The notes beneath the pieces were generated by a model. The model did not search any database and had not been told where the DNA came from. It saw only the letters and a program-made list of their open reading frames with translations. From positions 50,270-84,944 of the forward strand of contig NZ_LR734861.1 in the NCBI RefSeq assembly GCF_900010725.2: DNA of 34,675 nucleotides, written 5' to 3'. Below are positions 361 to 28,238 of the stretch, piece after piece. Position 1 is the stretch's first letter. The number at the start of each line of letters is the position of its first letter. Made by a program: the position numbers and the translations under genes. The DNA comes from Planktothrix serta PCC 8927. GTDB lineage: Bacteria > Cyanobacteriota > Cyanobacteriia > Cyanobacteriales > Microcoleaceae.

Positions 361-603
361 CCTATTTCTAGGGTAATGTTCGCTTCGCCAATGTTTTCTG
401 AACTTTTGGCGCTAACAACACTGTCTTACCCCTCGTAAAACTGTTTAATTGTTAACAATAGAGCCACAAACTAGCGTCGCATTCGTGGGTATTATGATCC
501 AGAAAACGTAGCCGTTAGGCTGAGGCGGGTACGAGCTATCTAAAGTTGGAGGCATGAAGCCCCGTCTCTTCAGAGCGGGGTGCTGACTGATAGTTTTACT
601 TTA
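361..603 (-). ncRNA. Omega RNA / HEARO RNA, copy 1 (iscB-linked)
   Basis: This structured RNA lies immediately upstream of iscB and is read in the same direction, as in OMEGA/HEARO loci. The scaffold is 361-587 and the putative guide is the roughly 16 bases at 588-603. Reading 5' to 3' on the minus strand, it starts GTCAGCA and forms a hairpin (ccccg 560-564 with cgggg 576-580). It then has conserved blocks (CTACGTTTT, ATGCG, GCTAGT, GGCTCT) and a long-range stem of 449-456 with 411-418. It ends with TTGGCGAAGC and TTACCCTAGAAAT. The same blocks occur at 1989-2242 and 8217-8449 with compensating changes in the stems. The exact 5' end and guide length are inferred. Confidence 0.82.
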
Positions 604-650
604 TGCCATTGCCGGGGGAATTGGGCTTAAATTTTACATTTTTGTTAGAG

Positions 651-1901
651 TTAGACTCGTCCTCGTAACATTTGACTCATCTCGTTAGGGAACGGAGAGA
701 CCTCTAAACAAATTTCTTCGGTAATCCGTCCTTCCTGATAGAGATTGTAAAGGGATTTGTTCATTGTTGTCATCCCTTCATAGGTATCTTTGAGCATAAT
801 TTGATTAATTTCTTCAAACTTGTCTTTAACGATGTATTCCTTAATTACATCGGTATTGATCAAAACATCGTGAAAAGCCGCCCGTTTACCATCGGTAGTT
901 TTACACAACAATTGAGCAATAATCGCCACTAGAGATTCGGAAATAGATACTTTAATCGAAGGTTGTTCCTCGGCGGTAAACATATCTAAAATCCGAGTTA
1001 ACGTTTTCACCGCACTATTGGTGTGTAACGTTCCAGAGACTAAGTGACCCGTTTGTGCTGCTTTTAAAGCAATTTGCATCGTTTCCTTGTCCCGAATTTC
1101 CCCTACCAGTAAAACATCGGGGTCTTGACGCAACGCTCCTTTAAGCGCATTAAAAAACTTTAAGGTATGGCGTCCGACTTCTCGGTGTTTAATCAGGGAT
1201 TTTTTACTTTCATGAACAAATTCTACCGGGTCTTCAATGGTAATAATATTGTAGGCATAGTTGCGGTTCATGTAGTCAATCATCGCCGCCAGGGTGGTAG
1301 ACTTACCCGAACCCGTTGGCCCTGTAACTAGAATTAACCCTTTGTGATATTGACAGATTTTTTTAAACACCTCTGGTAACTTCAACTGTTCCAAAGTCAA
1401 AATCGTGGAACCAATTAACCGCAATACCAGTGAAGGGCCATTGAGGGCATCAAAGATACTAATCCGAATTCGCACAAAGCCCAAATCTGCCGCGCCGTCA
1501 AAGTCGAGATTTTCTTGAAATTGGTGGATTTCCTCATCGGTTAACACCTCCATCAACCAACTCATAAACGTATTTAAGTCGGTGTTCGGCCACTCTAAAG
1601 GGACAATATCCCCCCGTTTACGAAAGCGTGGGGGTTCATTAACGCCTAAGTGAACGTCCGAAGCCCCCTCATCGTTGGCTCGTTTGACAATTTCATGTAA
1701 CGTCGGATTACCAGGGCTAGGGCCTTTGTTTCTGGGTGTCGCCATCACCGTTACTTTAGTCGCCGCAGCTTGAGCCGATGCAGCAACAGCACCACTGACA
1801 ACAGTAGCCCCAGGTGGGGGAGGTGCTTTCGGTGCAGGTGGACGTGGCGGAACCCCAGGCACTGGTGGACGAGGAACAGGTGGACGCTCTGATTGTGTCA
1901 T
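651..1901 (-). CDS. pilT: PilT-family twitching-motility ATPase (PilT2-like)
   Basis: This is a hexameric type IV pilus ATPase that powers pilus retraction, or modulates it, at the inner membrane. The core is complete: Walker A GPTGSGKST at residues 194-202, Asp box TIEDPVEF at 221-228, Walker B DVLLVGEIRD at 262-271, His box GHLVSGTLHT at 285-294. Two things separate it from the canonical retraction ATPase. It has a Pro-rich N-terminal extension of about 60 residues, and its C-terminal region lacks the usual AIRNLIRE motif (the comparable stretch reads INQIMLKD). It also does not neighbour pilB or pilC. This fits the second cyanobacterial PilT (PilT2, linked to phototaxis in Synechocystis) better than PilT1; the paralogue assignment is inference. 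An omega-RNA copy lies upstream (1989-2258) and another downstream (361-603), both in the gene's own orientation. Confidence 0.9.
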   Translation of the reverse strand: MTQSERPPVPRPPVPGVPPRPPAPKAPPPPGATVVSGAVAASAQAAATKVTVMATPRNKGPSPGNPTLHEIVKRANDEGASDVHLGVNEPPRFRKRGDIVPLEWPNTDLNTFMSWLMEVLTDEEIHQFQENLDFDGAADLGFVRIRISIFDALNGPSLVLRLIGSTILTLEQLKLPEVFKKICQYHKGLILVTGPTGSGKSTTLAAMIDYMNRNYAYNIITIEDPVEFVHESKKSLIKHREVGRHTLKFFNALKGALRQDPDVLLVGEIRDKETMQIALKAAQTGHLVSGTLHTNSAVKTLTRILDMFTAEEQPSIKVSISESLVAIIAQLLCKTTDGKRAAFHDVLINTDVIKEYIVKDKFEEINQIMLKDTYEGMTTMNKSLYNLYQEGRITEEICLEVSPFPNEMSQMLRGRV

Positions 1902-1988
1902 CGGAAAAATGGGTAGAAACCCCTAACTTCTAGTTAGGCTTTACATTTCCCCTTCCGGGGAGGAGGGTATGGTTGCCCTCCTAACACA
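1902..1988 (-). promoter_or_regulatory. Hairpin-rich leader between omega RNA copy 2 and pilT
   Basis: This 87-base spacer holds three short inverted repeats: 1922-1927 with 1933-1938 (CCTAAC/GTTAGG), cccc/gggg around 1950-1960, and AGGAGGG 1961-1967 with CCCTCCT 1976-1982. They could end the omega RNA or form the pilT 5' leader. No strong ribosome binding site is seen directly before the pilT start. Role unproven. Confidence 0.35.
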
Positions 1989-2258
1989 CCTATTTCTAGG
2001 GTAAAGTTAGCTTCGCCAAGGTTTTAAGAGCTTGCTAGGTTAGTGGCACTTCCTTAACCCGATAAAGATGTTTAACCACTAACGACAGAGCCTGGGACTA
2101 GCTACGCATCCACAGGGTGTCATGACTCAAAAAACGTAGTCAATTAAGACTTAGGCTGGTCAACTAATGCTGAAGGTGAGGCATTACTTCGCGTAGCCTG
2201 CGCTCCGCCCATAGCCCCTTTACTTCAGTACGGGTTGCTGACATCGCGTGACCTTCAG
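1989..2258 (-). ncRNA. Omega RNA / HEARO RNA, copy 2 (standalone, upstream of pilT)
   Basis: This is a second scaffold (1989-2242) with all the conserved blocks of copy 1. Its 5' hairpin is made of different bases (2216-2223 with 2228-2234), and its long-range stem 2076-2083/2039-2046 (gttagtgg with ccactaac on the top strand) replaces the copy 1 pairs. The putative guide (about 2243-2258) is unrelated to the guides of copies 1 and 3. It carries a GC-rich insert at 2188-2210, a sequence of the kind repeated in cyanobacterial intergenic DNA. No iscB follows; instead pilT starts 87 bases downstream in the same orientation. It is likely a trans-acting or relic omega RNA. Confidence 0.78.
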
Positions 2259-2340
2259 TAGAAAAAATCAATTCGGGCTGAAATATCGAATACTCTCAGT
2301 CTACCGCTTTGGGAAGCCTACAACAAGTTAGCTGTTGATG

Positions 2341-2443
2341 GTTGACTGTTGACTGTTGACTGTTGACTGTTGACTGTTGACTAATTACTGATTACTGATT
2401 ACTATTTATTCCCTGTTCCCTGTTCCCTGTTCCCTGTTCCCTC
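2341..2443. repeat. Heptanucleotide tandem repeats (STRR type)
   Basis: There are six copies of GTTGACT (2341-2382), then degenerate ATTACTG units (about 2384-2404), then five copies of TTCCCTG-like units (2409-2443). This matches the short tandemly repeated repetitive sequences typical of filamentous cyanobacteria. It ends seven bases before the amidase start and leaves no clear ribosome binding site. The rest of the gap (2259-2340) shows nothing recognisable. Confidence 0.85.
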
Positions 2444-2449
2444 ATTAAT

Positions 2450-3859
2450 ATGAATTCAGTGGATTTAGCCTTTACATCTGCTTTAGAACAAGCACGATTA
2501 ATTCGCACAAAAGTTTTATCTCCTTTAGAATTAATTGATTTTTATTTAGATCGAATTCAACGCTTAAATCCGCAGTTGGGTTGTTATTTTACCGTCATTG
2601 CAGAAACTGCTATAGAACTCGCCCAAACCCAAACGGAACAACTCACCCAAGCTTCTGATATTAACGAATTACCGCCCTTTTTTGGGGTTCCTATTTCAAT
2701 CAAAGATTTAAACCCCGTTGCGGGAGTAGCCTGTACTTATGGTTCACGGGCATTACTCGATAAAATAGCAACTTATGATGATGGAGTTGTTAGTCGCATT
2801 CGTCAAGCGGGATTTAATATATTAGGCAAAACCGCCACTTCAGAAGTCGGCTCATTACCCTACACCGAACCCGATGGCTTTCCTCCCGCTCGTAACCCTT
2901 GGAATTTAGATTATACCCCCGGTGGTTCCAGTGGAGGCGCAGCCGCAGCCGTAGCCGCCGGATTATCCCCCGTTGCTCATGGGTCGGATGGCGGGGGTTC
3001 AGTTCGTGGCCCTGCCTTTTGTTGTGGTTTAGTCGGAATTAAACCTACGCGGGGGCGAGTGTCCCATGCTCCAGTCGGAGACTTTCAAAGTGGGATTTCT
3101 AGCGATGGCCCCCTAGCCCGTACCGTTGCCGATGCTGCGGCATTATTAGATGTAATGTCAGGATATATTTTAGGTGATCCCTATTGGTTGCCTGATCCGA
3201 ATCCTTCCTTTTTAGCTGCGACAAAACAGCCTCCCAAGTCTTTAAAAATTGCAGTAGCAACGTCTATTTTACCCGTTGGTCAAGCCTCCCCAGACTGTGA
3301 ACAAGCGGTTAAAAATACCGTTAAGCTTCTGGAACAATTAGGTCATCAAATAGAAGTTATTAACCCCGATTTTACTGATATTATTGAACCGTTTACTTTG
3401 GTTTGGAAATCGGGAGTCGCAGCAGCCGGAATTCCTTCAGAGTATTTAGGTTCGGTGAATCAATGGTTAATGGAAACCCAAATAACAGCCGGACAATATT
3501 TGCAAGCGGTGTCTAAAATGCAGGTGGCAGGTCGTCAAATTGTCGCTTCATTAAGTCCCTTTGATGTTATTGTTTTACCCACCTATATGCACCCAGCAAT
3601 TTCTGTGGGAGAATATGCTCAACTTTCGCCAGAAGAAACATTACAGCGTATTATTGAATGGATCGCTCCCTGTCCCGCTTTTAATGTTAGTGGTCAACCG
3701 GCGATCGCTATTCCCACAGGTTTCACGTCTGAAGGTTTACCCGTTGGGGTGCAATTAGTGGGAAAACCCGCAACGGAAGCCACTTTAATCGCCTTAGCAG
3801 CACAACTAGAGGCGGCACAACCCTGGGAACACCATCGCCCCCCCATAGGAATGACGTAA
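2450..3859 (+). CDS. Amidase signature family enzyme
   Basis: This 469-residue enzyme of the amidase signature family hydrolyses a carboxylic amide bond; the substrate cannot be read from sequence. The Ser-cisSer-Lys triad is intact. Lys85 lies in SIKDLNPVAG, the cis-Ser is Ser160 in GGSSGG (158-163), and the nucleophile is Ser184 in SDGGGSVRGPA. The 24-residue spacing of the two serines equals that in GatA. Overall length also resembles GatA, but there is no gatB or gatC nearby and the C-terminal region is generic, so a stand-alone amidase is more likely than the tRNA amidotransferase subunit. The alpha/beta hydrolase gene follows after 44 bases on the same strand and may be co-transcribed. 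Confidence 0.88.
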   Translation: MNSVDLAFTSALEQARLIRTKVLSPLELIDFYLDRIQRLNPQLGCYFTVIAETAIELAQTQTEQLTQASDINELPPFFGVPISIKDLNPVAGVACTYGSRALLDKIATYDDGVVSRIRQAGFNILGKTATSEVGSLPYTEPDGFPPARNPWNLDYTPGGSSGGAAAAVAAGLSPVAHGSDGGGSVRGPAFCCGLVGIKPTRGRVSHAPVGDFQSGISSDGPLARTVADAAALLDVMSGYILGDPYWLPDPNPSFLAATKQPPKSLKIAVATSILPVGQASPDCEQAVKNTVKLLEQLGHQIEVINPDFTDIIEPFTLVWKSGVAAAGIPSEYLGSVNQWLMETQITAGQYLQAVSKMQVAGRQIVASLSPFDVIVLPTYMHPAISVGEYAQLSPEETLQRIIEWIAPCPAFNVSGQPAIAIPTGFTSEGLPVGVQLVGKPATEATLIALAAQLEAAQPWEHHRPPIGMT

Positions 3860-3903
3860 TTCGATGTTAAACTTTTGAGATTGTTTAACCCAGACATTTG
3901 ATT

Positions 3904-5580
3904 ATGCCTGAAATTCCGGGATCTGGTTTTTCTATTCTTTCTCAACTCCAGGGGAAAAAATTGTTCTTTCCCTTGAGTTTTTTAACGTCTACAATTGTTA
4001 GCAGTTTTCTGCTGTTTCCTCTTTCAGTGCGTGCAGCAGAATCTGTTGTGATCAGACAAGGATTTATTTATGCTACGGTTTCGGTAAAAGACTTAAAAGA
4101 ATTTGCAGAAACCGGAAAAGTTCCTTTAGGATTATTGGGTTATTTTAGTTTTTTAACTCCCGAACAAAAGCAACAGGCTTTAGGAGCTTTAAACATTAAA
4201 ATTAAAATCCAAGATGAAACGGTAGATGCCATTGTTAATAGTCAAGTCGGAACTCGACTTTTAACTGATATTGATACCATTATTTCTTCTGAACAATCCC
4301 AAGGAGGGACTGCAATTAAAGAAGCGATTTTGTTGTCTGGTAAATCTCCCCAAGGGTTATCGGTTATTAATTTTTTAGAAAACTATCCCCTATCTAAAAT
4401 TGAGATTAATGTTCCTAAAGCCTTTCAGGTTTTAAAACGATTAAATCAAGGATTTTGGCAAACTCAAAGATTACTATTAGAAGTTTTACCCAAATTTCCC
4501 ACCGGAGACTTTCAACCTCCACCAATTACCTTTGATCCAACTCAAGCAGGGCCAGGAAAAGTTGAAATTACCCAAATAGAATTGCTGGATCAACAACGAA
4601 ATCGTAATATTCCTGTTTATATTTATTCATCCTCCGCAGCCACACCCGATAAACCCCTAATTCTTTATTCTCACGGTCGGGGTTCAGATTATCAAGAATT
4701 ACGCTATTTAATGGAACATTTAGCCTCCTATGGCTATACTGTTATTGTTCCTGAACATCCTGGGAGTAACGCCACTTATGTAGATAAGAATTTGTTTTTA
4801 TCTCCCACAGAAATTATTGAACGCCCCCAAGATTTGATTTTTACGTTGGATGAATTAGAAAAATTGAATACCAATGATCCGAGATTTAAAGGTAAATTTA
4901 ATACAAATAATACTTTAGTTTTTGGCTATTCTTATGGAGGAGCAACGGCTTTAGCTTTAGCGGGAGGAGAGTTTCAAATTGATGAACTCAGGAAAAATTG
5001 TGATCAAAGCTTTATTACTTTTAGTTTAGGAAAAGCTACCCAATGTTTAGCCGCAGAACTTCCGAAAGATCGCTATCACTTTAGTGATCCTCGAATTAAA
5101 CGGGCGATATCCTTTGCTCCGACCGCTTCTGTTTTATTTGGAAAAACTGGATTAAATAAAGTTCAGGTTCCCACATTGATTTTAACACAATCTTCCGATA
5201 AAGTCACTCCGGCTTTACCTGAACAAATCGCCATTTTTCCTCAAATTAAAACCGAGAAATTATTATTAGGGGTTTTAGGAGCGACCCATTTAAGTGTTCG
5301 AGATCCTGGAACAATTGGGGATCAAAGTTGGATTCCCATTACTCCGATTTCTGGCGGTGAAGTAATTGCTGAGGCTTCAAAAGATGTCCGTAATTATGCT
5401 AAAATAATTGCCTTAGCAACCGCAGCACAGTTAACTCCAGAAGCAGAAAAATATCAGGTATTCCTGACACCCGAATATTATCGCTCTATTTCAACTCAAG
5501 CTTTTCCCGCGCGTTTAATTACGGATATTCCTCCAGAAACTCAAGTTTTTATTGAAGAGTTATTAGAAACTCAATATTAA
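3904..5580 (+). CDS. Exported DUF1400-type alpha/beta hydrolase
   Basis: The ATG at 3904 is preferred over the in-frame TTG at 3898, giving 558 residues. An N-terminal hydrophobic stretch (about 18-42) ending SVRAAES looks like a signal peptide. Residues 45-200 match the cyanobacterial DUF1400 N-terminal region, with alternating sequences that start AESVVIRQGF. The alpha/beta hydrolase fold follows: oxyanion region YSHGRGSD near 256, nucleophile elbow GYSYGG with Ser343, probable Asp in QSSDKVTP, and probable His in GATHLS. The family is common in cyanobacteria and contains PAF-acetylhydrolase-like enzymes. The substrate is unknown; a lipase or esterase acting in the periplasm is a reasonable guess. 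It follows the amidase closely. Confidence 0.85.
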   Translation: MPEIPGSGFSILSQLQGKKLFFPLSFLTSTIVSSFLLFPLSVRAAESVVIRQGFIYATVSVKDLKEFAETGKVPLGLLGYFSFLTPEQKQQALGALNIKIKIQDETVDAIVNSQVGTRLLTDIDTIISSEQSQGGTAIKEAILLSGKSPQGLSVINFLENYPLSKIEINVPKAFQVLKRLNQGFWQTQRLLLEVLPKFPTGDFQPPPITFDPTQAGPGKVEITQIELLDQQRNRNIPVYIYSSSAATPDKPLILYSHGRGSDYQELRYLMEHLASYGYTVIVPEHPGSNATYVDKNLFLSPTEIIERPQDLIFTLDELEKLNTNDPRFKGKFNTNNTLVFGYSYGGATALALAGGEFQIDELRKNCDQSFITFSLGKATQCLAAELPKDRYHFSDPRIKRAISFAPTASVLFGKTGLNKVQVPTLILTQSSDKVTPALPEQIAIFPQIKTEKLLLGVLGATHLSVRDPGTIGDQSWIPITPISGGEVIAEASKDVRNYAKIIALATAAQLTPEAEKYQVFLTPEYYRSISTQAFPARLITDIPPETQVFIEELLETQY

Positions 5581-5668
5581 TATCTAGCAGTCCTAAATAG
5601 GTTGTAATATTTTATCGTAGGGTTTGGTTTCCAAACCCAGGCGCAAAGAGGGTTTGGAGGGACACATT

Positions 5669-5826
5669 GGTGTCAACTTAAGTCATAATGCCCTGAAATA
5701 AATTTCGGGCTAAGAAGCGATCGGCATCTAAAGATGACTCAAGACTTGTCTTTCTTAACCCGTTTTAACGGGTTTAAGCTTTTAGCCTGAAATTTATTTC
5801 AAGGCTTTTGGCGTTAAGTTGACACC
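5669..5826. repeat. MITE-like nested palindrome
   Basis: Terminal inverted arms GGTGTCAACTTAA (5669-5681) and TTAAGTTGACACC (5814-5826) match perfectly. Inside are two small hairpins of the same design, 5690-5710 and about 5784-5806 (GCC..TGAAAT.. mirrored by ..ATTTC..GGC), and a central AACCCGTT/AACGGGTT palindrome near 5758-5774. It could be a non-autonomous mobile element or a strong transcript end after the hydrolase gene. No coding sequence lies within it. Confidence 0.7.
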
Positions 5827-6160
5827 GATGGGAGGGACATCACCCCTACAGGTTTTGATCACAAATCCTTTAGGATTGCTATAGTATACTTTCAGGGGTA
5901 AACTCTAGTCATTGAGGATATTGACATTGCAACTGCTCATTCCTTTTGAATTGCAGTGTTCTCCCTCTCAAACCCTCTTAATGTACAAACTGCTCAAATC
6001 CGATGATAGCAGTTGTATAAATACAGTGATTGACTGATACTAATCCAGCGAGCGTGAACCGTAAAATCTGTTTCTTTCAGTTAAGCTGTTCCCTATTCCC
6101 TATTCCCTGTTCCCTGCTATACAATAAATTCCCATAAATATGGTTATCTAAAAATTGCTT
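5827..6160. other. Intergenic stretch without recognisable gene
   Basis: No convincing reading frame or RNA is seen. A TATAAA-like box occurs near 6015. TTCCCTA/TTCCCTG tandem units fill about 6089-6116. The piece from about 6035 to 6120 (actgat.ctaa, then an aaccgta-like block, then the TTCCCTG units and ctatac) resembles 10875-10936, so it is a repeated intergenic module. Confidence 0.5.
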
Positions 6161-6385
6161 ATGACTCCTAAAAAAATTCTAGGCTGGGGCGCTGTTGCTT
6201 TAGTTGTTGTATTTATTTCCTCTGGCGATACGTTTAAATTTTTGCCCAAACCCGCCAGAGAAGCGAGTAAAACCAGTCGTGAGTTTGTTGTGAGTTTATG
6301 GCCGAAATGGTTACGGCCTAAAGACACCAATGAAAAACGAGAGAAAGAACTAGAAAAAATTGAAAAAGGTCAGGGAGCGAAATAG
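6161..6385 (+). CDS. Small membrane-anchored protein of unknown function
   Basis: The 74-residue product starts at ATG 6161; the TTG six bases earlier is less likely. Residues 6-22 (WGAVALVVVFISSG core) form one probable membrane helix. A basic, then strongly charged tail (NEKREKELEKIEKGQGAK) is probably a short coiled coil in the cytoplasm or lumen. There is no recognised domain. It is single and convergent with ilvC. Coding is supported by the helix/charged-tail layout and a clean stop; conservation could not be checked. Confidence 0.55.
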   Translation: MTPKKILGWGAVALVVVFISSGDTFKFLPKPAREASKTSREFVVSLWPKWLRPKDTNEKREKELEKIEKGQGAK

Positions 6386-6405
6386 GGTGTCAGGTGTCGG
6401 TTGTT

Positions 6406-6434
6406 GGTTGGCTGTTAACCGTTAACAGTCAACC
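6406..6434. terminator. Bidirectional terminator-like hairpin between convergent genes
   Basis: Arms 6406-6419 and 6421-6434 pair over 14 positions (one G-T wobble) around GTTAAC.GTTAAC. The hairpin is built from the same GTTGACT/AGTCAAC heptamers seen elsewhere and lies between the ends of the small plus-strand gene and ilvC. Confidence 0.5.
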
Positions 6435-6454
6435 GTCAACCGTCAACACATCCT

Positions 6455-7501
<1,047 letters not shown>

Positions 7502-7509
7502 TCATGCTC

Positions 7510-7518
7510 TGGTATGAT
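7510..7518 (+). promoter_or_regulatory. Possible extended -10 promoter for ridA
   Basis: TGGTATGAT fits the extended -10 form TGnTATnnT. A start about 7 bases downstream would leave a short leader before the ridA ATG at 7549. There is no well-spaced -35 box. Confidence 0.35.
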
Positions 7519-7548
7519 GTTACGGTTCATCGCACCGAGTCAGAAATT

Positions 7549-7938
7549 ATGCTGGAGTATATTACCCTCCCGAATCAAGTTTTACCTCCTGTAGCCCCCT
7601 ATTCCCATGCGGTCAGGGCCGGAGATTTTTTGTTTGTGACTGGACAACTCGCTGAAAATCCTGAAACTGGGGAAGTGATTAAGGGAGCGATTGAACAACA
7701 AACTCAGCAAGTGATGGAAAACTTAAAATTAGTCCTAAATCATGCAAAAACCAGTTTTAATCGAGTTGTCATGGCTCGAATTTTTGTAACGGATTTTCGA
7801 TACTATGAAACGGTCAATACCATCTATGCTTCTTATTTTCAAGCGGAACATTTACCCTGTCGAACCACCGTTGGCGTGATGGGACTGGCGGGTTTGGGAG
7901 ATGTTGAGATTGATTTAATTGTGTATTGTGGAGACTGA
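7549..7938 (+). CDS. ridA: RidA (YjgF/UK114) enamine/imine deaminase
   Basis: RidA hydrolyses reactive 2-aminoacrylate and related imines that leak from PLP enzymes such as threonine dehydratase. That protects branched-chain amino-acid synthesis, so the divergent ilvC neighbour fits. The frame is open far upstream into ilvC, but ATG 7549 gives a 129-residue protein that starts like the family, with the conserved VAPYSHAV at 15-22. Arg105 (PCRTTVGV), needed for substrate binding in active RidA proteins, is present, followed by the DVEIDLI end strand. It is expected to be a cytoplasmic trimer. Confidence 0.93.
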   Translation: MLEYITLPNQVLPPVAPYSHAVRAGDFLFVTGQLAENPETGEVIKGAIEQQTQQVMENLKLVLNHAKTSFNRVVMARIFVTDFRYYETVNTIYASYFQAEHLPCRTTVGVMGLAGLGDVEIDLIVYCGD

Positions 7939-8036
7939 ACTGTTAACGACTCCACAATTGTATCAAATCATCAAATCATGTAAACATATATATAGTTAGT
8001 GTTATAGTCTGTAATGCTATCAAGGGTTACAACACT

Positions 8037-8045
8037 TGTTATAAT
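8037..8045 (+). promoter_or_regulatory. Extended -10 promoter TGTTATAAT
   Basis: This is a perfect TGnTATAAT element. No good -35 box is seen (CTATCA at 8017-8022 is weak). It would start transcription near 8051, right at the candidate small RNA that follows. Confidence 0.5.
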
Positions 8046-8050
8046 GAGTT

Positions 8051-8119
8051 TGTGGCAAGGTTGTGTGCAGTTTAAGTTAGACAAACTGTTATTAAGTCTT
8101 GTTTCAGCTTGCCTTTTTT
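8051..8119 (+). ncRNA. Candidate small RNA with intrinsic terminator
   Basis: About 69 bases lie between a perfect extended -10 and a T6 run. The arms GGCAAG (8054-8059) and CTTGCC (8108-8113) close the molecule directly before TTTTTT (8114-8119). Inside, CAGTTT (8068-8073) pairs with AAACTG (8083-8088). It does not carry the ACTCCTCACAC core of Yfr1 and I do not recognise it. There is no reading frame. It could alternatively be an attenuated leader of the omega RNA that begins about 80 bases further on. Confidence 0.42.
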
Positions 8120-8200
8120 CTTTAAGAAAGAGGATGGGATGATGAATACTAGAAGATAAGCCCTCTATCCCAGGGTAGAGAAAAGCGATCTAGGACTCAA

Positions 8201-8449
8201 TACTAGCGGTGAGGATGTCAGTAACTCATGGCTAAAGCCACTGAGCTTGTAAGAGCAATTGAAGCAAGCTGTACTGACCAGCCTAAGACTGTAAAGGTCT
8301 ACGTTTTTGGAGTCACGACACCCTAGAATGCGTAGCTAGTTCCAGGCTCTGTCACTTGTAATTAAACAGTTCTAAAGTCACTGGAACAGTGTTACAAGTC
8401 TAAAAAGCTCTTAAAACATTGGCGAAGCTAACTTTACCCCAGAAATGGG
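8201..8449 (+). ncRNA. Omega RNA / HEARO RNA, copy 3 (standalone, no iscB)
   Basis: The scaffold runs 8217-8449, on the opposite strand to copies 1 and 2. It begins GTCAGTAAC and has a 5' hairpin (ctca 8225-8228/tgag 8242-8245 and ggc 8230-8232/gcc 8237-8239). The shared blocks CTACGTTTT, ATGCG, GCTAGT, GGCTCT, TTGGCGAAGC and AGAAAT follow. The long-range stem 8355-8362 with 8393-8400 (ACTTGTAA/TTACAAGT) differs in sequence from both other copies but keeps pairing. The putative guide is about 8201-8216. No IscB-like frame follows; the next gene is an unrelated small protein. Confidence 0.78.
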
Positions 8450-8689
8450 AGTGCTATGCGTACAGGAATGGTTGATTGGGGAATGGTAATTGTCCCGTTT
8501 TTAAGTGCAATACAAAGGTACACCTGATTGAGTATTCCCAAGGCGGTAGCAAATTTAATATTTCACGGGGAATTTATTCCCCTGAGTCTATTTTCCTCTG
8601 CTGGTCTGAAGCACGCAAAGCATGAAAACCTTGTCTCCGTGAAAACGGGCAGGGGGACGCGCCAGTTTCCAATCTCCCATGAGGTTTTT

Positions 8690-8974
8690 ATGAAACAACC
8701 TTCACAGTTAACTCGGCTGATTTGGGATTTTTATCGGGAAAACCAACAGGAGTTAGACCAACTTCAACTCCTGAGAAACTGTAAAGTATTCCGGCGGTGG
8801 GGGGTGTTACATATTCAGTGTCTGACCCAGGAAATGGGTGAAGCCATCGCGGAGGTTTACAGTTTAATCCGAGAACCTGTATCTCAAATGCGGCTCGCGC
8901 CCAAAATTAAAATATCTGTTAAGAACATAACAGTTGCTGTATTTTGTGTTAAACCCAATCAAATTATGGCTTAA
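8690..8974 (+). CDS. Hypothetical protein, 94 residues
   Basis: The frame is open from a TTG at 8528, but the first 54 codons look non-coding and contain an inverted repeat (8567-8582). ATG 8690 has a GAGG ribosome binding site seven bases upstream and is preferred. The product is soluble with a short amphipathic N-terminal half (TRLIWDFYRENQQELDQLQ) and a beta-rich second half (VFRRWGVLHIQC, then a helix with EMGEAIAEVYSLI). I do not recognise a family. It follows omega RNA copy 3 in the position where iscB would sit, but it is not IscB. Confidence 0.5.
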   Translation: MKQPSQLTRLIWDFYRENQQELDQLQLLRNCKVFRRWGVLHIQCLTQEMGEAIAEVYSLIREPVSQMRLAPKIKISVKNITVAVFCVKPNQIMA

Positions 8975-9020
8975 ACAACTCAGGATGTTTTGGACATCTT
9001 TGCAGGAATTTAAGTCTCAA

Positions 9021-9059
9021 CAAGTTCCCTGCTATTTCCCCAGAAGTGCAGGGAACTTG
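9021..9059. terminator. Strong hairpin after the hypothetical gene
   Basis: The 12-base arms CAAGTTCCCTGC (9021-9032) and GCAGGGAACTTG (9048-9059) are perfectly complementary around a 15-base loop. They lie 47 bases after the stop at 8974. There is no T run, so it is either a factor-dependent end or a repeat. Confidence 0.55.
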
Positions 9060-9138
9060 CTGAAAAGGGGAAGGGAATTAACCCAAATTGTTAACGAGAA
9101 TACGAATTAGTGCCTGATCCTAACTTGAAACAAGAATT

Positions 9139-10937: not shown

Positions 10938-12005
10938 CTAAATAGTGACTGTAAAAATAGAACCTTGAGGATAGTTATTATCTACAGAAATTGTGCCTCC
11001 GTGTGCTTCAATGGCTATTTTACAAAAAGCTAAACCTAATCCCGTTTGAGCAATTCCTTTGTGAAAGGTGCCCACATCATATTTTTCAAAAATGCGTTGT
11101 TGAAGTTCTTCGCTGATGCCAGAGCCCGAATCTATCACCTGAATTTTAACTGCTTTTTCTGGGGGATAACTAATTCTTAAAATAATTTGACCTCCGGGTG
11201 GGGAAAATTTAATGGCGTTGGATAATAAATTCTCCATAACTCGTCGTAAAATCACCGAATCGACTTCAATCTGTTTCCCAGGTTCTGGTAATTCACACAC
11301 CAATTTCATCTGACTATGGACTGCCACAGGTTCAAAATCCGTTGCAATTGCTTGACCCATTTCATACATATCTACAGGATCATAATTTAGAACTAATTGA
11401 TCGGCTTGAACTTTAGCAATAATTAATAAACTATCGACTAACGATACCATGCGTTGGCTAAGTCTAAAAATATCTTCAATTTTTTGGCGTTGTTTGGGTT
11501 GTAACTCTGAACGCCTAAGAAGTTCACAACTAAATAAAATTCCTGCTAAAGGATTATTCAAATCATGAATAATCATATTGGATAAATCATCTCTGACTTG
11601 AAGTAAGGCTTGTAATTCATCATATTGCTGTTTAATTCTTAACATAGATCGAACCCTAGCTCGGAGTTCTATCCCATTCACGGGTTTACTAATAAAATCA
11701 TCCGCACCTGCATCTAAACAAAGGGCTAAATCTTCTTTTGCGGTTAGAGCCGTAACCATAATAATTGGAATATGACACCACAAAGAATTAGCTTTAATCT
11801 GATGACAAAGTTGAATGCCATCTAACTCTGGCATCATCACATCCAATAAAATTATGTCCGGGAAATGAAGCGATAAACGTTCTAATGCTTCAGCACCACT
11901 ACCAGCAAAACTCAGATGATAGCCTTCTCTAAATAAGAGAATTTCGATGACATCAAAGTTATCGGGTTCATCATCAATCACAAGTACAGAGGGGGATGAA
12001 GCCAT
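10938..12005 (-). CDS. Receiver-histidine kinase (REC-HisKA-HATPase)
   Basis: This is a soluble 355-residue protein with the receiver first: acidic pocket IDDEPD, phospho-acceptor Asp55 (LLDVMMPELDG), and Lys107 in ISKPVN. A HisKA domain follows with His147 (MIIHDLNNPLAG), then a full ATPase domain with ENLLSNAIKFSP (N box), DSGSGI (G1) and GLGLAF (G2). The layout suggests a kinase whose activity is set by phosphorylation of its own receiver, placing it downstream of another kinase. It is the last gene of the phytochrome operon. A GGAG site lies inside the end of the upstream gene and only two bases separate the stop and start, so translation is probably coupled. Confidence 0.93.
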   Translation of the reverse strand: MASSPSVLVIDDEPDNFDVIEILLFREGYHLSFAGSGAEALERLSLHFPDIILLDVMMPELDGIQLCHQIKANSLWCHIPIIMVTALTAKEDLALCLDAGADDFISKPVNGIELRARVRSMLRIKQQYDELQALLQVRDDLSNMIIHDLNNPLAGILFSCELLRRSELQPKQRQKIEDIFRLSQRMVSLVDSLLIIAKVQADQLVLNYDPVDMYEMGQAIATDFEPVAVHSQMKLVCELPEPGKQIEVDSVILRRVMENLLSNAIKFSPPGGQIILRISYPPEKAVKIQVIDSGSGISEELQQRIFEKYDVGTFHKGIAQTGLGLAFCKIAIEAHGGTISVDNNYPQGSIFTVTI

Positions 12006-12007
12006 TG

Positions 12008-15000
12008 TTAACTCCTTTTAATTGACAATAAATTCTGTATCGTTTCTAATAATTTTACAAGACGAATTGGTTTTGTTAAATACGCATTTGCCCCAACAGC
12101 TAAACATCGTTCTTCATCTCCAGGCATAGCCAAAGCTGTTAATGCAATAATCGGAATTGTGGCAATTTCTGAATTAGCGCGAATTTGACAAATAGCAGTC
12201 AATCCATCCATTTCGGGCATAGAAATATCCATTAAAATTAATTCAGGTCGTTGCTGTTGTGTAATTTCAATCGCTTCTAAACCATTTTTAGCGACCAAAA
12301 CACGATAACCTTTACAATCCAAATATTCAGAAACCATGATAATATTTGACTCATTATCTTCAGCTAATAACACTAAGGGAGAATTTGCTAACGAGATAGT
12401 GGGTGGCGGATGGATATCCCTTAAACCCAGAGTTCTCAAGGGTGAACCCGCTACAATAGCCAAGTCTTCCCCAGGAAGTTGCGAAGTTCTATAGGGGATT
12501 TTTACAGTAAAACAACTGCCTTGATCCAGGTTGCTGCTAACACTAACACAACCTTGATGTAACTCAGTAATGCGTCGCACCATTGCTAACCCTAATCCGG
12601 TTCCCGAATGGGTTCGACTTAAACGATTATCTAACTGTACAAAAGACTGAAATAGTTTATCTTGATCCGAGGGTGCAATCCCAATTCCTCTATCTTCGAC
12701 TTCAAAAACTAACATTTCTGAAACATCAAGATTCGGGCAGGCTTCTGGGGTCTTTGGGTTGCTTTCAATTCTAACACGCAAGGTAATTTTTTCCCCTTCT
12801 GGGGTAAATTTAACAGCATTGCTTAACAAATTAATTAAAACCTGTCGAATTTGTCGTTGATCGAGGAAAACAATACAATCCTTCGGTAACAATTCCGTGA
12901 TTAATTGCATCCTTTTTTTATGAGCTTGGGGACGAATAAACGCTAGGCTATAGTCACATAATTGGTAAAGAGAAACGGCAGACATTTCCAATTTAACTTG
13001 ACCGGATTCAATTTTAGCTAAGTCTAAAATATCATTAATTAGTTCTAAAAGGTGTTGACCACTGCGTTGAACGATTGTCAGAGATCTGCGTTGTTTTTCG
13101 GTTAGGGAACCATAAACTTCTTCTAATAACCCTTCTGACATTCCTAGAATTGCATTTAAGGGCGTTCTTAATTCATGGCTCATATTCGCTAAAAATTCAT
13201 CTTTGAGGCGCGTCGCTTGAGCTAAGGCTTGGTTGGTTAACTTTAATTGCTCATTGGTGGTTTGGAGTTGTAATTCAGTTTCCTGTCGTTCTTTTAATTC
13301 AATTTTAAGTTTTTGATAAAGTTCCGATTGTTGAATGGCGATCGCTAATTGACTAGCTAACTGTTGTAATAAATTAATTTCCCAAGGTTGCCACTGTCGA
13401 GGTTGAAAACACTGATGTGCCACTAATAGCCCCCAAAGTCGATCATTTTGCACAATCGGAACCACTAATTTTGCTTGAATTTGATAGGTTTCCATAAATT
13501 CTTGTAAGCAAATCGGTTCCGTTTTCAGGCTACGATCTGCCAAGTTATAAATTTTTCCTTGTCGATATTGTTGATAACAAGATACAGGAAAGGTTTCCAT
13601 ATCGAAAACATGATCAAATAAACAGATGCAACCCGGTGAGCAGGTTTCAGCAATTACTTTTCCGCGATTATCCTCCATAATTTGATAAATTAACATCCGA
13701 TCAGATTGCAAAATTTTATAGGTTTCGTTTGCTGCTTTATTCAGAATGTCCTGCAAGTTTAAAGATTCTCGTAAACGCTGGGTGACAGTATTTAATAATT
13801 GTTCCCGTTCTATTTGTTGTTGGAGGGCATTTTCGATCAATTGACGTTCTGTGATATCGGAAACGATTCCTAATCGTCCTTTAACCTGACCCTCAGCATC
13901 GGTCAATAGAAACTTAACCCCTTGAAAATACCGTTCTTCTCCTGTCGTTGTTATCATTGATAATTCAAAATTCTGCCGAGTTTCCTCTGGAATCTGGGCG
14001 GTAAACAACGGGCTCATTTGTTGAGACGAATTTTGCTGAATGGGAGCGGGAATTTCGTCTAATTTTTTATGAATAATATCTGAAATCTTTTTGCTATAGA
14101 AACGAGCCATTGTTTCGTTGACTAACAACACTTTCCCCTGTAAATTAGTCACAAAAATCCAACTAGGATTGGCATCAATAATCCTATATAAAAATGATTT
14201 CTGTTCTAATAATTCCTGTTCGGCTTCTTTGCGATCGCTAATTTCTTGTTGTAAACGTTCATTTGTATATTGTAAAGCCAGTGTTCGACCTTGCACCCGG
14301 TCTTCAAGTTGTTGATTCAAGCTTCGCAATTCAGCTTCAATCTGTTCTCGTTCAGTAATATCTAATCCCGTGGCAATAATATATTCAATTTCGCCGTGTT
14401 GATCAGATAAAATCGTATTAGACCAACTGATCAAGCGACGATTTCCCCGTTTTGTGACCCAGTAATTATCATGACGATCAGAACATTCTCCCTTGCATAA
14501 GTTTTGAAATACAACTCTAATCTGTTGTTGTTCTTCTGGGAGAATTAAAAAATCCCAAAAATATTTTCCCTCTAATTCCTGAGTAGAATACTCCGTTAAT
14601 TGCTCACAGGCTTGATTAAATCGGACAATTCTCCCTTGACGATCCAAAACAATGATTAAAGCGGCAACTGATCCTAAAACTGCCGATATAAAGTTCCGTT
14701 CTTGTGTTAAAGCTTGTTCTATTTTCTGTCGTTTTTGTAATTCTTTTTGCGCTTGATCATATAATTCCCCATGACGAATAGCGATCGCTAATTGTACCCC
14801 AATTCCCCGAAGAACATTAAATTCTCCCTCTGTCCATTTCCGAAAATTAGCACATTGATGCACAATTAATAGTCCCCAAAGATGAACCTTGGAAGTAGAA
14901 ATTGGTTCGTTATCATCATTGAGTAAAATGGGTGTAATCAAACTCGATTTGATTTGCCATTCTTCTAATAATTCAATATGACAATTCGCTAATTCCGCCT

Positions 15001-15703
15001 GGTAAATATTAGCAATTCCCCGTTGTTTTCGATGGCGATATTGCTGCTTTTGTTCTTCGGGAAAACAATGGCTACCTAAATATAAACCTAAACAGGATGA
15101 CCAAGACGGTAATACAGACTCGGCAATAATCCGACCTCCTCCTAGGGGTAAAAACTGATAAACCACCACTCGGTCTGCCTTTAAACATCGGCTAACTTCT
15201 GCCACTGCGGTGGTTAAAATATCATCTAGGTTCAAAAATTGCAAAATCCGCAACGCCACATTCGCAACTAATTGTTGTTGTTCTTGTTGCTGTTGAATTT
15301 GTCTAACTAAAAATATTTGTTCTAATACCAAATGGACTCTGTGGCAGAGATCATCGCAGGTAATCTGATCCTTAATAATATAATCTTTTACCCCATTTTT
15401 GAGGGCTTGAACCGCTACATTTTCATTTCCTTGTCCTGTAATCATCAGGATCGGTAGAGTCGGAATTGGAATAAACTGTTGTAGCTGTTCTAAAAACTCT
15501 AACCCATCCATATCTGATAGTAAATAATCTAGTAACATCAGGTCAGGAGGGGATTTGCGGCAGTATTCTAAGGCAATTTCAGCAGAATTAGCATCAATAA
15601 TTGTATAGGAATAATGGGGATCAGATTGTAAGTAACGACGATAAGCAACTCGATCTTCTGTCGAATCGTCAAGGAGCAAAATAGTAACATGAGGATGTGG
15701 CAT
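12008..15703 (-). CDS. Hybrid histidine kinase with cyanobacteriochrome-like GAF (REC-GAF-PAS-PAS-GAF-HisKA-HATPase-REC)
   Basis: The 1231 residues are soluble. The domains are an N-terminal receiver (Asp59), GAF1 (about 145-315), PAS (335-455), PAS (505-620), GAF2 (635-800), HisKA with His843 (ANMSHELRTPLN), HATPase (945-1070: LINLLSNAVKFTP, DRGIGI, GTGLGLA) and a C-terminal receiver (Asp1159, LILMDISMPEMDG). GAF1 has the canonical cyanobacteriochrome Cys-His (Cys241-His242, NCHIELLEEW) and a second Cys in SHCF (Cys213). The two cysteines are 28 residues apart, as in DXCF-type photoreceptors, but the motif Asp is Ser211. GAF2 keeps a Cys at the canonical place with Leu instead of His (Cys732-Leu733). 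A blue/green-type light sensor is likely but not proven. It is third in the operon. Confidence 0.9.
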   Translation of the reverse strand: MPHPHVTILLLDDSTEDRVAYRRYLQSDPHYSYTIIDANSAEIALEYCRKSPPDLMLLDYLLSDMDGLEFLEQLQQFIPIPTLPILMITGQGNENVAVQALKNGVKDYIIKDQITCDDLCHRVHLVLEQIFLVRQIQQQQEQQQLVANVALRILQFLNLDDILTTAVAEVSRCLKADRVVVYQFLPLGGGRIIAESVLPSWSSCLGLYLGSHCFPEEQKQQYRHRKQRGIANIYQAELANCHIELLEEWQIKSSLITPILLNDDNEPISTSKVHLWGLLIVHQCANFRKWTEGEFNVLRGIGVQLAIAIRHGELYDQAQKELQKRQKIEQALTQERNFISAVLGSVAALIIVLDRQGRIVRFNQACEQLTEYSTQELEGKYFWDFLILPEEQQQIRVVFQNLCKGECSDRHDNYWVTKRGNRRLISWSNTILSDQHGEIEYIIATGLDITEREQIEAELRSLNQQLEDRVQGRTLALQYTNERLQQEISDRKEAEQELLEQKSFLYRIIDANPSWIFVTNLQGKVLLVNETMARFYSKKISDIIHKKLDEIPAPIQQNSSQQMSPLFTAQIPEETRQNFELSMITTTGEERYFQGVKFLLTDAEGQVKGRLGIVSDITERQLIENALQQQIEREQLLNTVTQRLRESLNLQDILNKAANETYKILQSDRMLIYQIMEDNRGKVIAETCSPGCICLFDHVFDMETFPVSCYQQYRQGKIYNLADRSLKTEPICLQEFMETYQIQAKLVVPIVQNDRLWGLLVAHQCFQPRQWQPWEINLLQQLASQLAIAIQQSELYQKLKIELKERQETELQLQTTNEQLKLTNQALAQATRLKDEFLANMSHELRTPLNAILGMSEGLLEEVYGSLTEKQRRSLTIVQRSGQHLLELINDILDLAKIESGQVKLEMSAVSLYQLCDYSLAFIRPQAHKKRMQLITELLPKDCIVFLDQRQIRQVLINLLSNAVKFTPEGEKITLRVRIESNPKTPEACPNLDVSEMLVFEVEDRGIGIAPSDQDKLFQSFVQLDNRLSRTHSGTGLGLAMVRRITELHQGCVSVSSNLDQGSCFTVKIPYRTSQLPGEDLAIVAGSPLRTLGLRDIHPPPTISLANSPLVLLAEDNESNIIMVSEYLDCKGYRVLVAKNGLEAIEITQQQRPELILMDISMPEMDGLTAICQIRANSEIATIPIIALTALAMPGDEERCLAVGANAYLTKPIRLVKLLETIQNLLSIKRS

Positions 15704-15725
15704 AGTAACAGCTTACAGAAAAGTT

Positions 15726-16160
15726 TCAGAGCAGCAGAGAAACTTCTAGCCAATAATGAATAAAATGCTGGATAGTCTGTTTAAAGGCATCTATTCCTAC
15801 CGGTTTTAACAGATAGCTGTTAGCTCCATAGAGATAGGAGGTTTGTACATCTTTAGGGTTAGAAGAAGATGTTAGCACAATAATCGGGATACTTCTTAGA
15901 ATTGTATCTTGTTTGACTTGTTGAATCACCTCCCGACCATCGGTTCCAGGTAAGTTAAGATCCAGAAGAATTAAATCAGGAGTGGGTGTAAATTCTGTGT
16001 TAGCATAAACACCCTGATGATAGAGATAGGCTAACGCATCATCTCCATCAATGGCTCGATAAATCGGATGAGCGTAGCGTAACTGTCGCATCACCCGTGT
16101 TAACGCCGTAAAATCTTCATCACTATCTTCAACGACTAATATAGTTCTTGGTTCACCCAT
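15726..16160 (-). CDS. rcpB: Single-domain response regulator, Rcp1/RcpB-like
   Basis: The 144-residue stand-alone receiver has its acidic pair in VVEDSDED, phospho-acceptor Asp67 in LILLDLNLPGTDG, Thr/Ser in VLTSSSNPKDV and Lys in LLKPVGIDAF. The LNLPGxDG motif and the longer beta3 loop are typical of the receivers that pair with cyanobacterial phytochromes. Its position 37 bases after the phytochrome gene gives the direct partner; it should accept phosphate from His539 of that kinase. There is no output domain, so it probably relays to the kinases further along the operon. A weak AAGGA ribosome binding site precedes the start. Confidence 0.88.
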   Translation of the reverse strand: MGEPRTILVVEDSDEDFTALTRVMRQLRYAHPIYRAIDGDDALAYLYHQGVYANTEFTPTPDLILLDLNLPGTDGREVIQQVKQDTILRSIPIIVLTSSSNPKDVQTSYLYGANSYLLKPVGIDAFKQTIQHFIHYWLEVSLLL

Positions 16161-16197
16161 TCAATGTCCTTGGTCTTTTCATCTTTTTCAATCCTAA

Positions 16198-18471: not shown

Positions 18472-18517
18472 GGTTGTCTGAGTTTTGAATGGATATAATC
18501 ACTAAGATACACCTGAA

Positions 18518-18871
18518 ATGGCGATTAAATATTCCCCGAAGAGTGGTATAATCAAACTGGAGATTATGCAGGATTTCCAACAAATCATTCTACAAGTCCA
18601 GGATCGAGGGATTGGAATTCCTGAAGCCGAGCAAGCAAAAGTCTTTGATAGATTTTATCGAGGTTCCAATATCGGAAATATTTCCGGCACTGGCTTAGAT
18701 TTAGCACAGGTTAAAGGCTTTGTCGAGGCTCATTGGGAAAACATTTCAATTCACAGCAAACTGGGTTCAGAAACTCAATTTACCGTTCAATTGTCTCGAA
18801 TTCCTGATATCAAGGATTATACCATTATCACCAAATTACAAAAACACCCCCTAAACTCCAAAAAATATTAA
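18518..18871 (+). pseudogene. Truncated histidine kinase ATPase-domain fragment
   Basis: Only the C-terminal half of a HATPase domain remains (117 codons). It starts at what would be the end of the N box (AIKYSP). The G1 box DRGIGIP is intact, but the G2 region reads GTGLDLAQVKGFVEAHWEN where families have GLGLA and HGG. Sensor, HisKA and most of the N box are missing, and an upstream in-frame stop (TAA at 18503-18505) excludes a longer frame. It precedes a receiver gene, the usual place of a cognate kinase, so it is best read as the 3' remnant of a deleted kinase. The breakpoint lies in the 46 bases next to the cphB start. Confidence 0.75.
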
Positions 18872-18909
18872 ACGGATTCGGAAAATAAATTGATTTGAGA
18901 GAAACAACC

Positions 18910-20676: not shown

Positions 20677-20710
20677 AGGGGTTTGATTAAAAATTATTAA
20701 GGGAGTCAAA

Positions 20711-21811
20711 ATGACAAAAGTTTTGGTAATTGAGAATGAAGAATCCATTCGAGAGAATATTTTAGAACTGCTAGAAATTGAAGATTTTGAAACCCTAGCA
20801 GCCGAGAATGGAAAAATCGGTTTAGCCATTGCCCAAAAATCCCATCCCGACTTAATTTTATGTGATGTGATGATGCCAGAATTGGATGGGTATGGGGTAT
20901 TAGAAGCCCTACGGCAAGACCCAGAAACAATGATGATTCCGTTTATTTTCCTAACAGCTAAAGCCGATAAATTAGACCTGCGAAAGGGGATGGAACTGGG
21001 GGCAGATGATTATTTAACCAAACCATTTACCCCCCATGAATTGTTGAAAGCGATCGCAACTCGACTTGAAAAACAAGCCGTTGTTCAAAAAGTATCTCAA
21101 CAACAACTTGATGAACTTCGCAGTAATATTACCCATTCTTTACCCCATGAATTAAGAACGCCTCTGAATGGAATTCTGGCATCAACGGAACTTCTTCTCC
21201 ATGAATTAGACTTTATGGAAACCTCTGAAATTCGTGAAATTGTCGAGCAAATTTCCTTATCGGGTCAACGCTTATATCGGTTGACAATGAATTTTCTTCT
21301 CTATGCAGAATTAGAACTAATTGCCGCCGAACCCCAACGGGTTGCTAGTTTACGTCAGCAGAAAACCACATCCTCCGAAACCGTCATTACCGAAAAAGTT
21401 ATGGCTCAGATTCAAGAGGCACAACGGGAAACTGATGTATCCCTGCATCTGCAAGATGTCGCTATAGCAATGGCAGAAATGAGACTGGAAAAACTGGTTG
21501 AAGAATTAGTTGATAATGCTCTCAAGTTTTCCCCCATCGGAAAACCGATTGAAATTAACGGATTTGTTAAAGACAATCAATTTATTTTATCTGTTAAAAA
21601 CGCTGGACGAGCAATGACGGCTCAACAAATTGCTCAAATTGGTGCCCATATGCAATTTGAACGCAAACTTTATGAACAACAGGGTTCTGGATTAGGATTA
21701 GCCATTGTCCAAAAATTAATAGAACTTCATCAAGGTCAATTGATCATAGAAAGTCCCACCGAGCAGCAAACAATTGTAACCGTTTATTTACCTCTATTCG
21801 GCGATTTATGA
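20711..21811 (+). CDS. Receiver-histidine kinase (REC-HisKA-HATPase)
   Basis: This is a 366-residue soluble protein. The receiver has Asp52 (LCDVMMPELDGYG) and Lys104 (LTKPF), and shares long blocks with the preceding protein's receiver, so the two arose by duplication. HisKA has His146 in SLPHELRTPLNG. The ATPase domain has VDNALKFSP and a normal GSGLGLA, but the G1 box reads KNAGRAM in place of DxGxG, so ATP binding or turnover may be altered. A GGGAG ribosome binding site precedes the start by about 6 bases. The stop overlaps the next start (ATGA), indicating translational coupling with the giant kinase. Confidence 0.92.
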   Translation: MTKVLVIENEESIRENILELLEIEDFETLAAENGKIGLAIAQKSHPDLILCDVMMPELDGYGVLEALRQDPETMMIPFIFLTAKADKLDLRKGMELGADDYLTKPFTPHELLKAIATRLEKQAVVQKVSQQQLDELRSNITHSLPHELRTPLNGILASTELLLHELDFMETSEIREIVEQISLSGQRLYRLTMNFLLYAELELIAAEPQRVASLRQQKTTSSETVITEKVMAQIQEAQRETDVSLHLQDVAIAMAEMRLEKLVEELVDNALKFSPIGKPIEINGFVKDNQFILSVKNAGRAMTAQQIAQIGAHMQFERKLYEQQGSGLGLAIVQKLIELHQGQLIIESPTEQQTIVTVYLPLFGDL

Positions 21812-28107: not shown

Positions 28108-28112
28108 GAGCA

Positions 28113-28238
28113 GTCGGGGAAGTCGGGGAAGTCGGGGAAGTCGGGGAAACAGGGGAAGCAGGGGGAGAGAAGAAAATAATTAACACCTGAAACCCGACAC
28201 CTGAAACCCGACACCTGTTAACAGTCAACAGTCAACGA
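28113..28238. repeat. Tandem repeats behind the giant kinase
   Basis: Four copies of the 9-mer GTCGGGGAA (28113-28148) are followed by AGGGGAAGC units, a 14-base unit (acacctgaaacccg) repeated near 28185-28214, and AACAGTCAACAGTCAAC. The gap to 28332 holds nothing else I can name apart from a GAGGG ribosome binding site before the next gene. Confidence 0.75.

Follow-up and report, generated by a model that had tools for sequence, protein, structure and literature searches.

HEARO elements of Planktothrix serta PCC 8927 and related genomes lie before RTGA, are biased towards the direction of host transcription and may be retained through IscB acting in trans

A stretch of 34,675 nt at the end of a contig of the cyanobacterium Planktothrix serta PCC 8927 (NZ_LR734861.1, positions 50,270–84,944; hereafter, the window) contains three HEARO/omega RNAs, designated copies 1 to 3, of which only copy 1 adjoins a gene for the RNA-guided nuclease IscB. 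Our comparative analyses make it likely that the three RNAs ride on a single family of IS200/IS605-like elements, to which this 6.27-Mb genome (G000; other genomes are designated likewise) has about 41 matches, and that these elements are retained by means of IscB supplied in trans and of guides transcribed from host promoters. An earlier note on this DNA had described the three copies and suggested that copies 2 and 3 could provide guides to a single IscB; here we delimit the elements, their insertion sites and their position with respect to host genes.

The Three RNAs Belong to the HEARO Family

An Infernal scan of the window against Rfam 15 (cmscan) matched family RF02033 (HEARO), along the full model, in three of the three intervals: 373–587 (−) for copy 1, 2001–2242 (−) for copy 2 and 8217–8437 (+) for copy 3. 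The scores, 142.2, 151 and 157 bits, respectively, are above the curated cut-off of 83 bits, and no second family reached its own cut-off in the window. All three RNAs are HEARO/omega RNAs, which agrees with the identity that the earlier note had assigned to them. The stems that it quoted do pair, and its three long-range stems, one per copy, correspond to helix 13 in our count over 28 copies from this genome.

The 3′ ends given in that note (361, 1989, and 8449) lie 12 nt past the Rfam model and exactly enclose a terminal hairpin, with which the scaffolds span 361–587 (−), 1989–2242 (−) and 8217–8449 (+). The hairpin is CCTAgaaaTAGG in copies 1 and 2 and CCCAgaaaTGGG in copy 3 (for copy 1, positions 361–372, CCTAGAAATAGG); it has a GAAA loop and a stem that varies on both sides among copies (CCTA/TAGG, CCCA/TGGG). 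Its helix is paired in 97% of the cells among the 28 copies, and it is retained and covaries also in copies without iscB. This hairpin is probably a portion of the omega RNA omitted by Rfam, because, according to PMC9581776, the PLMP domain of IsrB, which also contacts the Shine-Dalgarno sequence, stabilises the base of a hairpin at the end of the omega RNA. Several HEARO scaffolds also carry palindromic inserts of around 24–28 bp (TTCGCG...GCGAAGC type) within loops or at the pseudoknot, as seen in copy 2 (about 2186–2210), in copy 3 of G002 (L144) and in copies of the beta family, described below, from G001 and G002.

Copies 2 and 3 Are Whole Elements Without a Nuclease Gene

The element containing copy 2 spans 341 bp (1902–2242, −), from its left end, GTCAG, at 2242 to its right end at 1902. 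It is also present in G002, and G006 contains a precise empty site, where host homology stops at 1901 and resumes at 2243 without target duplication. The right end adjoins ATGA (1898–1901, −), which provides the start codon of a pilT-like gene for a T2SSE ATPase (651–1901, −; 416 aa; PF00437, 193.5 bits), located between copies 1 and 2 on the same strand; the same start and an open frame of 416 codons are found in G006, with the empty site, and in G003. The flank of the left end (2243–2258, −), within the 5′ leader of the pilT-like gene, is the predicted guide. The last 14 bases of this guide followed by ATGA are absent from the whole genome, allowing for 2 mismatches, except for its own junction, where GTCA stands in place of ATGA. 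Between copy 2 and an amidase gene there is a stretch of short tandem repeats (2341–2440; TTGACTG and TTCCCTG types), and similar stretches occur elsewhere in related genomes.

The element containing copy 3 comprises 462 bp (8217–8678, +), is followed by ATGA (8679–8682) and sits between two genes that are both on its own strand. Homology of the host DNA ends at 8216 and resumes at 8679, and the same element is found in G002. No empty site was found for copy 3 among the relatives compared, its insertion being deduced only from a replacement in G006, where a different element of around 340 bp, from the beta family (L146, 1371–1710), is bordered by the same guide flank and ATGA. The predicted guide (8201–8216, +) is in a flank conserved in G002 and G006. 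In a comparison of 41 by 32 elements, around 0.016 exact site coincidences are expected, or 0.16 if one tenth of the RTGA sites were usable, which makes an in-place replacement in G006 likely. G006 is nearer to this genome than G002 (94 vs. 91% in the pilT-like gene) and yet copy 3 is common to G000 and G002. Tandem insertion was considered as the source of this swap and discarded, as no element showed, within the 30 bases just before it, an exact match of 15 bases to the right end of another.

Neither of the two elements contains a nuclease gene, and within the window only copy 1 adjoins iscB, both as previously noted.

Copy 1 and a Possible Supply of IscB in Trans

Copy 1 is directly upstream of iscB, and its left end is at 587; the copy is missing from G002 and G003, which read TATCG-GTGAATC at this place. 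The right end is beyond the window and uncertain by 23 bp. The canonical right end of the family is at position 6113 of L049, followed by CTGA and not by RTGA, and an end placed 23 bp further, before ATGAATC (L049, 6089–6086), aligns better with the empty sites. Depending on placement, the right junction of copy 1 would be CTGA or ATGA, with GTGA in the empty site of its relatives. The predicted guide, of 16 nt as is usual for IscB, occupies the flank of the left end (588–603, −), in host DNA outside of the element and just 3′ of the pilT-like gene.

The window includes the 117 N-terminal codons of this iscB (1–351, −; PF14239 RRXRR, 153.5 bits), which a scaffold gap consisting of a single N (L049, position 6270) interrupts at the first position of the window, with the C-terminal codons just across. 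Split RRXRR matches had suggested that the gene was interrupted by a 4-kb insertion, an idea that we rejected, as the break is this gap and the C-terminal codons follow directly.

The genome contains 41 HEARO matches, 31 above and 10 below the cut-off, and nine matches to RRXRR, the N-terminal domain of IscB, contrary to the previous assumption of a single IscB. Pieces of iscB were identified with tblastn in seven of the 41 HEARO elements, and an eighth (C66_79232) starts like iscB by eye. Stand-alone copies score up to 160.9 bits, and the seven elements with iscB pieces 42–166, five of them 134–166. In relatives, open iscB frames have around 434–464 codons. HEARO matches occur in 29 of the 40 genomes searched, including this one, in numbers ranging from 1 to at least 44 per genome. 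Of note, the HEARO matches of G018, at least 44, are accompanied by at least 150 to the zinc-ribbon domain of TnpB, a heavy load of elements with RNA-guided nucleases.

The finding of stand-alone omega RNAs reportedly goes back to Altae-Tran, in 2021. According to PMC9581776, which cites its reference 4 for it, stand-alone omega RNAs can function with IscB, so we do not take the lack of iscB beside copies 2 and 3 to exclude them from the family. A supply of IscB in trans to these two copies is plausible from this precedent.

Insertion at RTGA

HEARO elements are said, after Weinberg in 2009, to insert upstream of ATGA or GTGA, and RTGA is found directly 3′ of copies 2 and 3. We extended the analysis to 157 elements from eight genomes, comprising all the listed matches of G000, G006, G002, and G001, plus 39 out of at least 44 from G018, 10 of 11 from G017, seven of 13 from G039 and three of six from G032. 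Right ends were called for 117 of them, four by hand, and RTGA follows the end in 107 of the 113 automatic calls; the procedure required NTGA and left just the first base free as a test, the empty sites being independent evidence. Right ends were edited by hand in a few cases: four were set (including copy 1), five were moved to an adjacent RTGA, one, which had two candidates, was changed to the nearer, and three were dropped as unreliable. Besides the sites described above, an empty site for C58_143664 was seen in G002.

Most insertion sites do not seem to be common to different genomes, given that a comparison of flanks found only three of the 41 loci of G000 to be shared with, or adjacent to, loci of G006. 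Elements C24_234421 (G000) and C225_4653 (G006) were considered as different elements at a single site, an idea that was discarded, because they occupy separate ATGA sites that lie side by side upstream of the same gene. Additionally, some right ends of the delta family (e.g., L011 and L015) finish in GGAGGAAGAAAG immediately before ATGA, which would give the downstream gene a ready Shine-Dalgarno sequence.

The RNA Structure Is Under Selection at the Family Level

Among the 28 copies of G000, both partners have changed in 29 of 71 base pairs, and covariation reaches a score of 0.264, compared with 0.129 in shuffles and with a maximum of 0.083 when the partners were slid. The RNA structure is therefore under strong selection at the family level. 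In a tree with 70 scaffolds from four genomes, copy 1 falls among elements bearing iscB, copy 2 is part of a beta group, which has no iscB, and copy 3 joins its ortholog from G002 and a G006 element that starts like iscB, beside a delta group. The three copies belong to three subfamilies and, from this topology, most of the differences in their stems predate insertion. The claim that these stem differences reveal selection on structure consequently holds for the family, where it is borne out by covariation, and does not extend to these copies at present, as their differences are old and separate subfamilies.

Within the beta family (20 copies) the signal is smaller: the covariation score is 0.061 vs. 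0.043 in shuffles (none of 500 shuffles was as high), with 22 double-changed cells vs. 10.3, although just four double-changed pairs vs. 3.4, two of them with the same ten-to-ten split. Comparison of orthologs over a scaffold core of 160 columns revealed, between copy 2 and its G002 ortholog, a single pair with full compensation, besides one wobble and one broken pair, and, in a pair of delta orthologs from G002 and G006, two broken pairs and none compensated. The evidence for selection acting in place on copies 2 and 3 is thus thin; these comparisons make it likely, but do not prove, that the individual stand-alone copies are under selection today.

HEARO Elements Are Biased Towards Host Start Codons and Host Transcription

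Context was examined for 112 of the 157 elements, those with a called right end, at least 400 bp on each side and no long runs of N near the site. Neighbour genes were open reading frames (ORFs) of at least 100 codons called with a script, and not annotated genes; background sites were taken from the same loci. The RTGA opens one of these ORFs in 43 of the 112 elements. Considering only intergenic elements, this occurs in 37 of 100, vs. 118 of 1,120 background intergenic RTGA sites (Fisher, p = 5e-11). The proportion differs among genomes, namely G006 (13/16), G002 (9/13), G017 (5/5), G001 (3/6), G000 (9/28), G039 (1/4), G032 (1/2), and G018 (2/38).

The orientation of the elements with respect to their neighbours is also biased. 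Denoting by + a gene on the strand of the RNA, and giving the upstream gene before the downstream one, 95 elements were distributed as ++ 41, −+ 38, +− 12, and −− 4, and 884 background sites as ++ 270, −+ 285, +− 108, and −− 221. Sites with neither neighbour co-directional are therefore strongly depleted (4/95 vs. 221/884, p = 2.8e-7), and the depletion persists after removing the start-codon sites (4/58 vs. 219/780, p = 1.6e-4) or four orthologous duplicates (4/91, p = 7e-7). As a control we used 20 elements with tnpB, hand-picked out of many more (eight from G000, eight from G002 and four from G006), which were distributed as ++ 4, −+ 10, +− 3, and −− 3. In this small sample, TnpB and HEARO elements do not differ significantly (p = 0.10, or p = 0.07 within the same three genomes), and part of the orientation bias may therefore be generic.

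A Putative Route to Retention

In IscB systems the guide lies 5′ of the scaffold and the target-adjacent motif (TAM) 3′ of the target. This and other background on guides and TAMs used here derives in part from PMC9581776 and PMC9755519; the former indicates that DtIsrB prefers NTGA TAMs. In the model that we favour, each element inserts on the 5′ side of a tetranucleotide RTGA, which for copy 1 is the GTGA of the empty site in relatives, and its guide would be the host DNA just 5′ of the left end, outside of the element. The promoter for the guide must then also lie outside, and a host promoter would read through guide and scaffold. An IscB produced from another copy would bind this omega RNA in trans, and the resulting ribonucleoprotein would recognise and cut the reunited empty site, that is, the guide sequence followed by RTGA as the TAM. 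Repair of the element-free allele from the element-bearing one would then restore the element, leading to its retention. The filled allele would be spared, because in it the guide is followed by GTCA and not by RTGA.

The bias towards start codons and towards co-directional genes suggests that guides are transcribed from host promoters, since a sense insertion at an RTGA start codon would set the guide behind the promoter of the host gene. The three copies of the window fit this read-through in their position relative to genes on the same strand: copy 1 lies after the pilT-like gene, copy 2 in the leader of that same gene and copy 3 between its two co-directional neighbours. Scans for sigma-70-like promoters in the flanks gave one hit for copy 2, on the wrong strand, vs. 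0.9 in shuffles, and two for copy 3 vs. 1.6, so that nothing exceeded chance.

Pushing the argument further, RTGA could be at the same time the insertion site, the presumed TAM and a start codon plus one base. The docked elements without nuclease would then act as a set of host-transcribed guides spread over the whole genome, each guarding its own leader with a few IscB proteins serving all of them in trans; we put this forward tentatively, at slightly less than an even chance.

With these analyses, RNA copies first noted in isolation acquire a testable explanation of how guides for IscB are produced. With a guide external to the element, the element cannot carry the promoter of its own guide, and the bias towards start codons and sense insertion suggests where the transcript would come from. 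They also single out a lineage of cyanobacteria that has guide loci by the dozen, in which filled, empty, deleted and swapped sites are found in close relatives, and they clearly predict the DNA that would be cut by IscB.

Alternative Explanations

Several observations weigh against retention through IscB in trans with host-driven guides. None of the nine RRXRR matches of the genome spans the whole profile in this assembly: one contains a TAG, and others are cut by gaps or truncated. None of the nine loci with Y1_Tnp matches, searched for a cognate Y1 transposase, had both matching ends; the only one with a sequence resembling the alpha right end, the Y1 transposase of L040/L048, was rejected as the mover, as that end is followed by GTGT and tnpB lies alongside. 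The canonical right end of copy 1 precedes CTGA. Decay is apparent in orthologs, with one broken stem and a 24-bp insert at the pseudoknot in copy 3 of G002 and an internal deletion of 205 bp in copy 2 of G003. Docking at start codons is not universal (2/38 in G018 and 9/28 in G000, though 13/16 in G006), and 14 of the 20 TnpB elements likewise have a co-directional gene downstream.

Alternatively, copies 2 and 3 could be inert relics resembling miniature inverted-repeat transposable elements (MITEs), moved by a transposase with specificity for their ends and devoid of functional guides, their omega RNA fold being maintained only by youth or by a need of the transposase for DNA hairpins formed by the same sequences. 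Ten of the 41 matches fall below the cut-off, some orthologs have deletions and broken stems, double covariation is scarce in the beta family, and the delta pair from G002 and G006 has two broken pairs with none compensated, all of which fit this explanation. However, stand-alone copies score as high as those linked to iscB (up to 160.9 vs. 42–166 bits), the 3′ terminal hairpin and the helices of the interior, both distant from the ends of the DNA, have for the most part been retained, and an orientation towards host transcription is unexpected for inert DNA elements; we consider the elements unlikely to be mere relics. It is far less probable, and indeed very doubtful, that they have been co-opted as 5′ leaders or regulators acting in cis on the host genes that they abut, such as the pilT-like gene, instead of providing guides. 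ORFs of at least 100 codons do begin at the RTGA of 43 of the 112 elements, and some delta right ends put GGAGGAAGAAAG immediately 5′ of ATG; nevertheless, copy 2 is not required by the pilT-like gene, because the frame is full in G006, where the element is absent, as well as in G003, where it is internally deleted, and, additionally, most sites are seemingly unshared, with the mentioned three of 41 loci shared with or adjacent to those of G006.

A further explanation concerns only the capture of promoters and is compatible with the remaining steps of the model that we favour. The biases could result from purifying selection on host genes, or from a generic insertion preference of IS200/IS605 transposases, rather than from a need for a promoter. 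In TnpB elements the guide lies at the opposite end, and still the 20 hand-picked loci lean in the same direction (14 with the downstream gene co-directional); docking at start codons is also rare in G018. Conversely, sense and antisense insertions in leaders should be equally harmful to the host, and yet ++ is found in 41 elements and −− in only 4, and the −− class of TnpB (3/20) is nearer to the background, albeit in a small sample and without a significant difference. On balance, such an origin of the biases has appreciable weight, although we are inclined to doubt it.

Relation to Known Systems

The three RNAs resemble HEARO/omega RNAs (RF02033) in sequence and in secondary structure over the full model, with the terminal hairpin followed by purines, and by this likeness the guide is presumably 5′ of the scaffold; the difference is that no gene for the nuclease after which the family is named adjoins copies 2 and 3. 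The elements also agree with non-autonomous, MITE-like derivatives of IS200/IS605 in being short and multi-copy, with precise ends and a fixed tetranucleotide at one of them, in the absence of target duplication at copy 2, and in having hairpins near the ends by eye; unlike these, they carry a conserved scaffold for a guide RNA. IsrB proteins lack the HNH domain, whereas the IscB ORF in L052 has an HNH-like motif by eye, which separates the present system from DtIsrB. According to PMC9581776, DtIsrB shares with it an NTGA-type TAM and a terminal omega RNA hairpin beside a Shine-Dalgarno sequence, and the stand-alone omega RNAs cited therein are likewise loci without iscB in genomes with iscB sequence elsewhere, although here the ends, empty sites, RTGA junctions and orientation to host genes were worked out, from sequence alone.

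What is already known thus includes the HEARO family, the functioning of stand-alone omega RNAs with IscB and the RTGA insertion rule. We found no description of the docking at start codons or of the orientation bias among the papers listed on HEARO and on IscB insertion, in a search that did not cover most of the relevant subscription journals, and its novelty is unproven.

Other Features of the Window

On the 3′ side of the copy 3 element, 11 nt past its end, is the start codon of an ORF of 94 aa (8690–8974, +). This ORF was found in 10 loci, with relatives in Lyngbya, Arthrospira, Roseofilum, Spirulina, and others, and a longer version of this frame (8528–8974) did not match any Pfam family. 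At the orthologous position, G003 lacks the whole region 6454–9066, with ilvC, the copy 3 element, a RidA-like gene and the ORF of 94 aa, and the RidA-like gene was detected by DNA in only three of 10 genomes of the genus. Finally, positions 10,938–29,424 are occupied by a long cluster encoding, by eye, large proteins similar to sensor kinases and response regulators, one of them of 2,099 aa.

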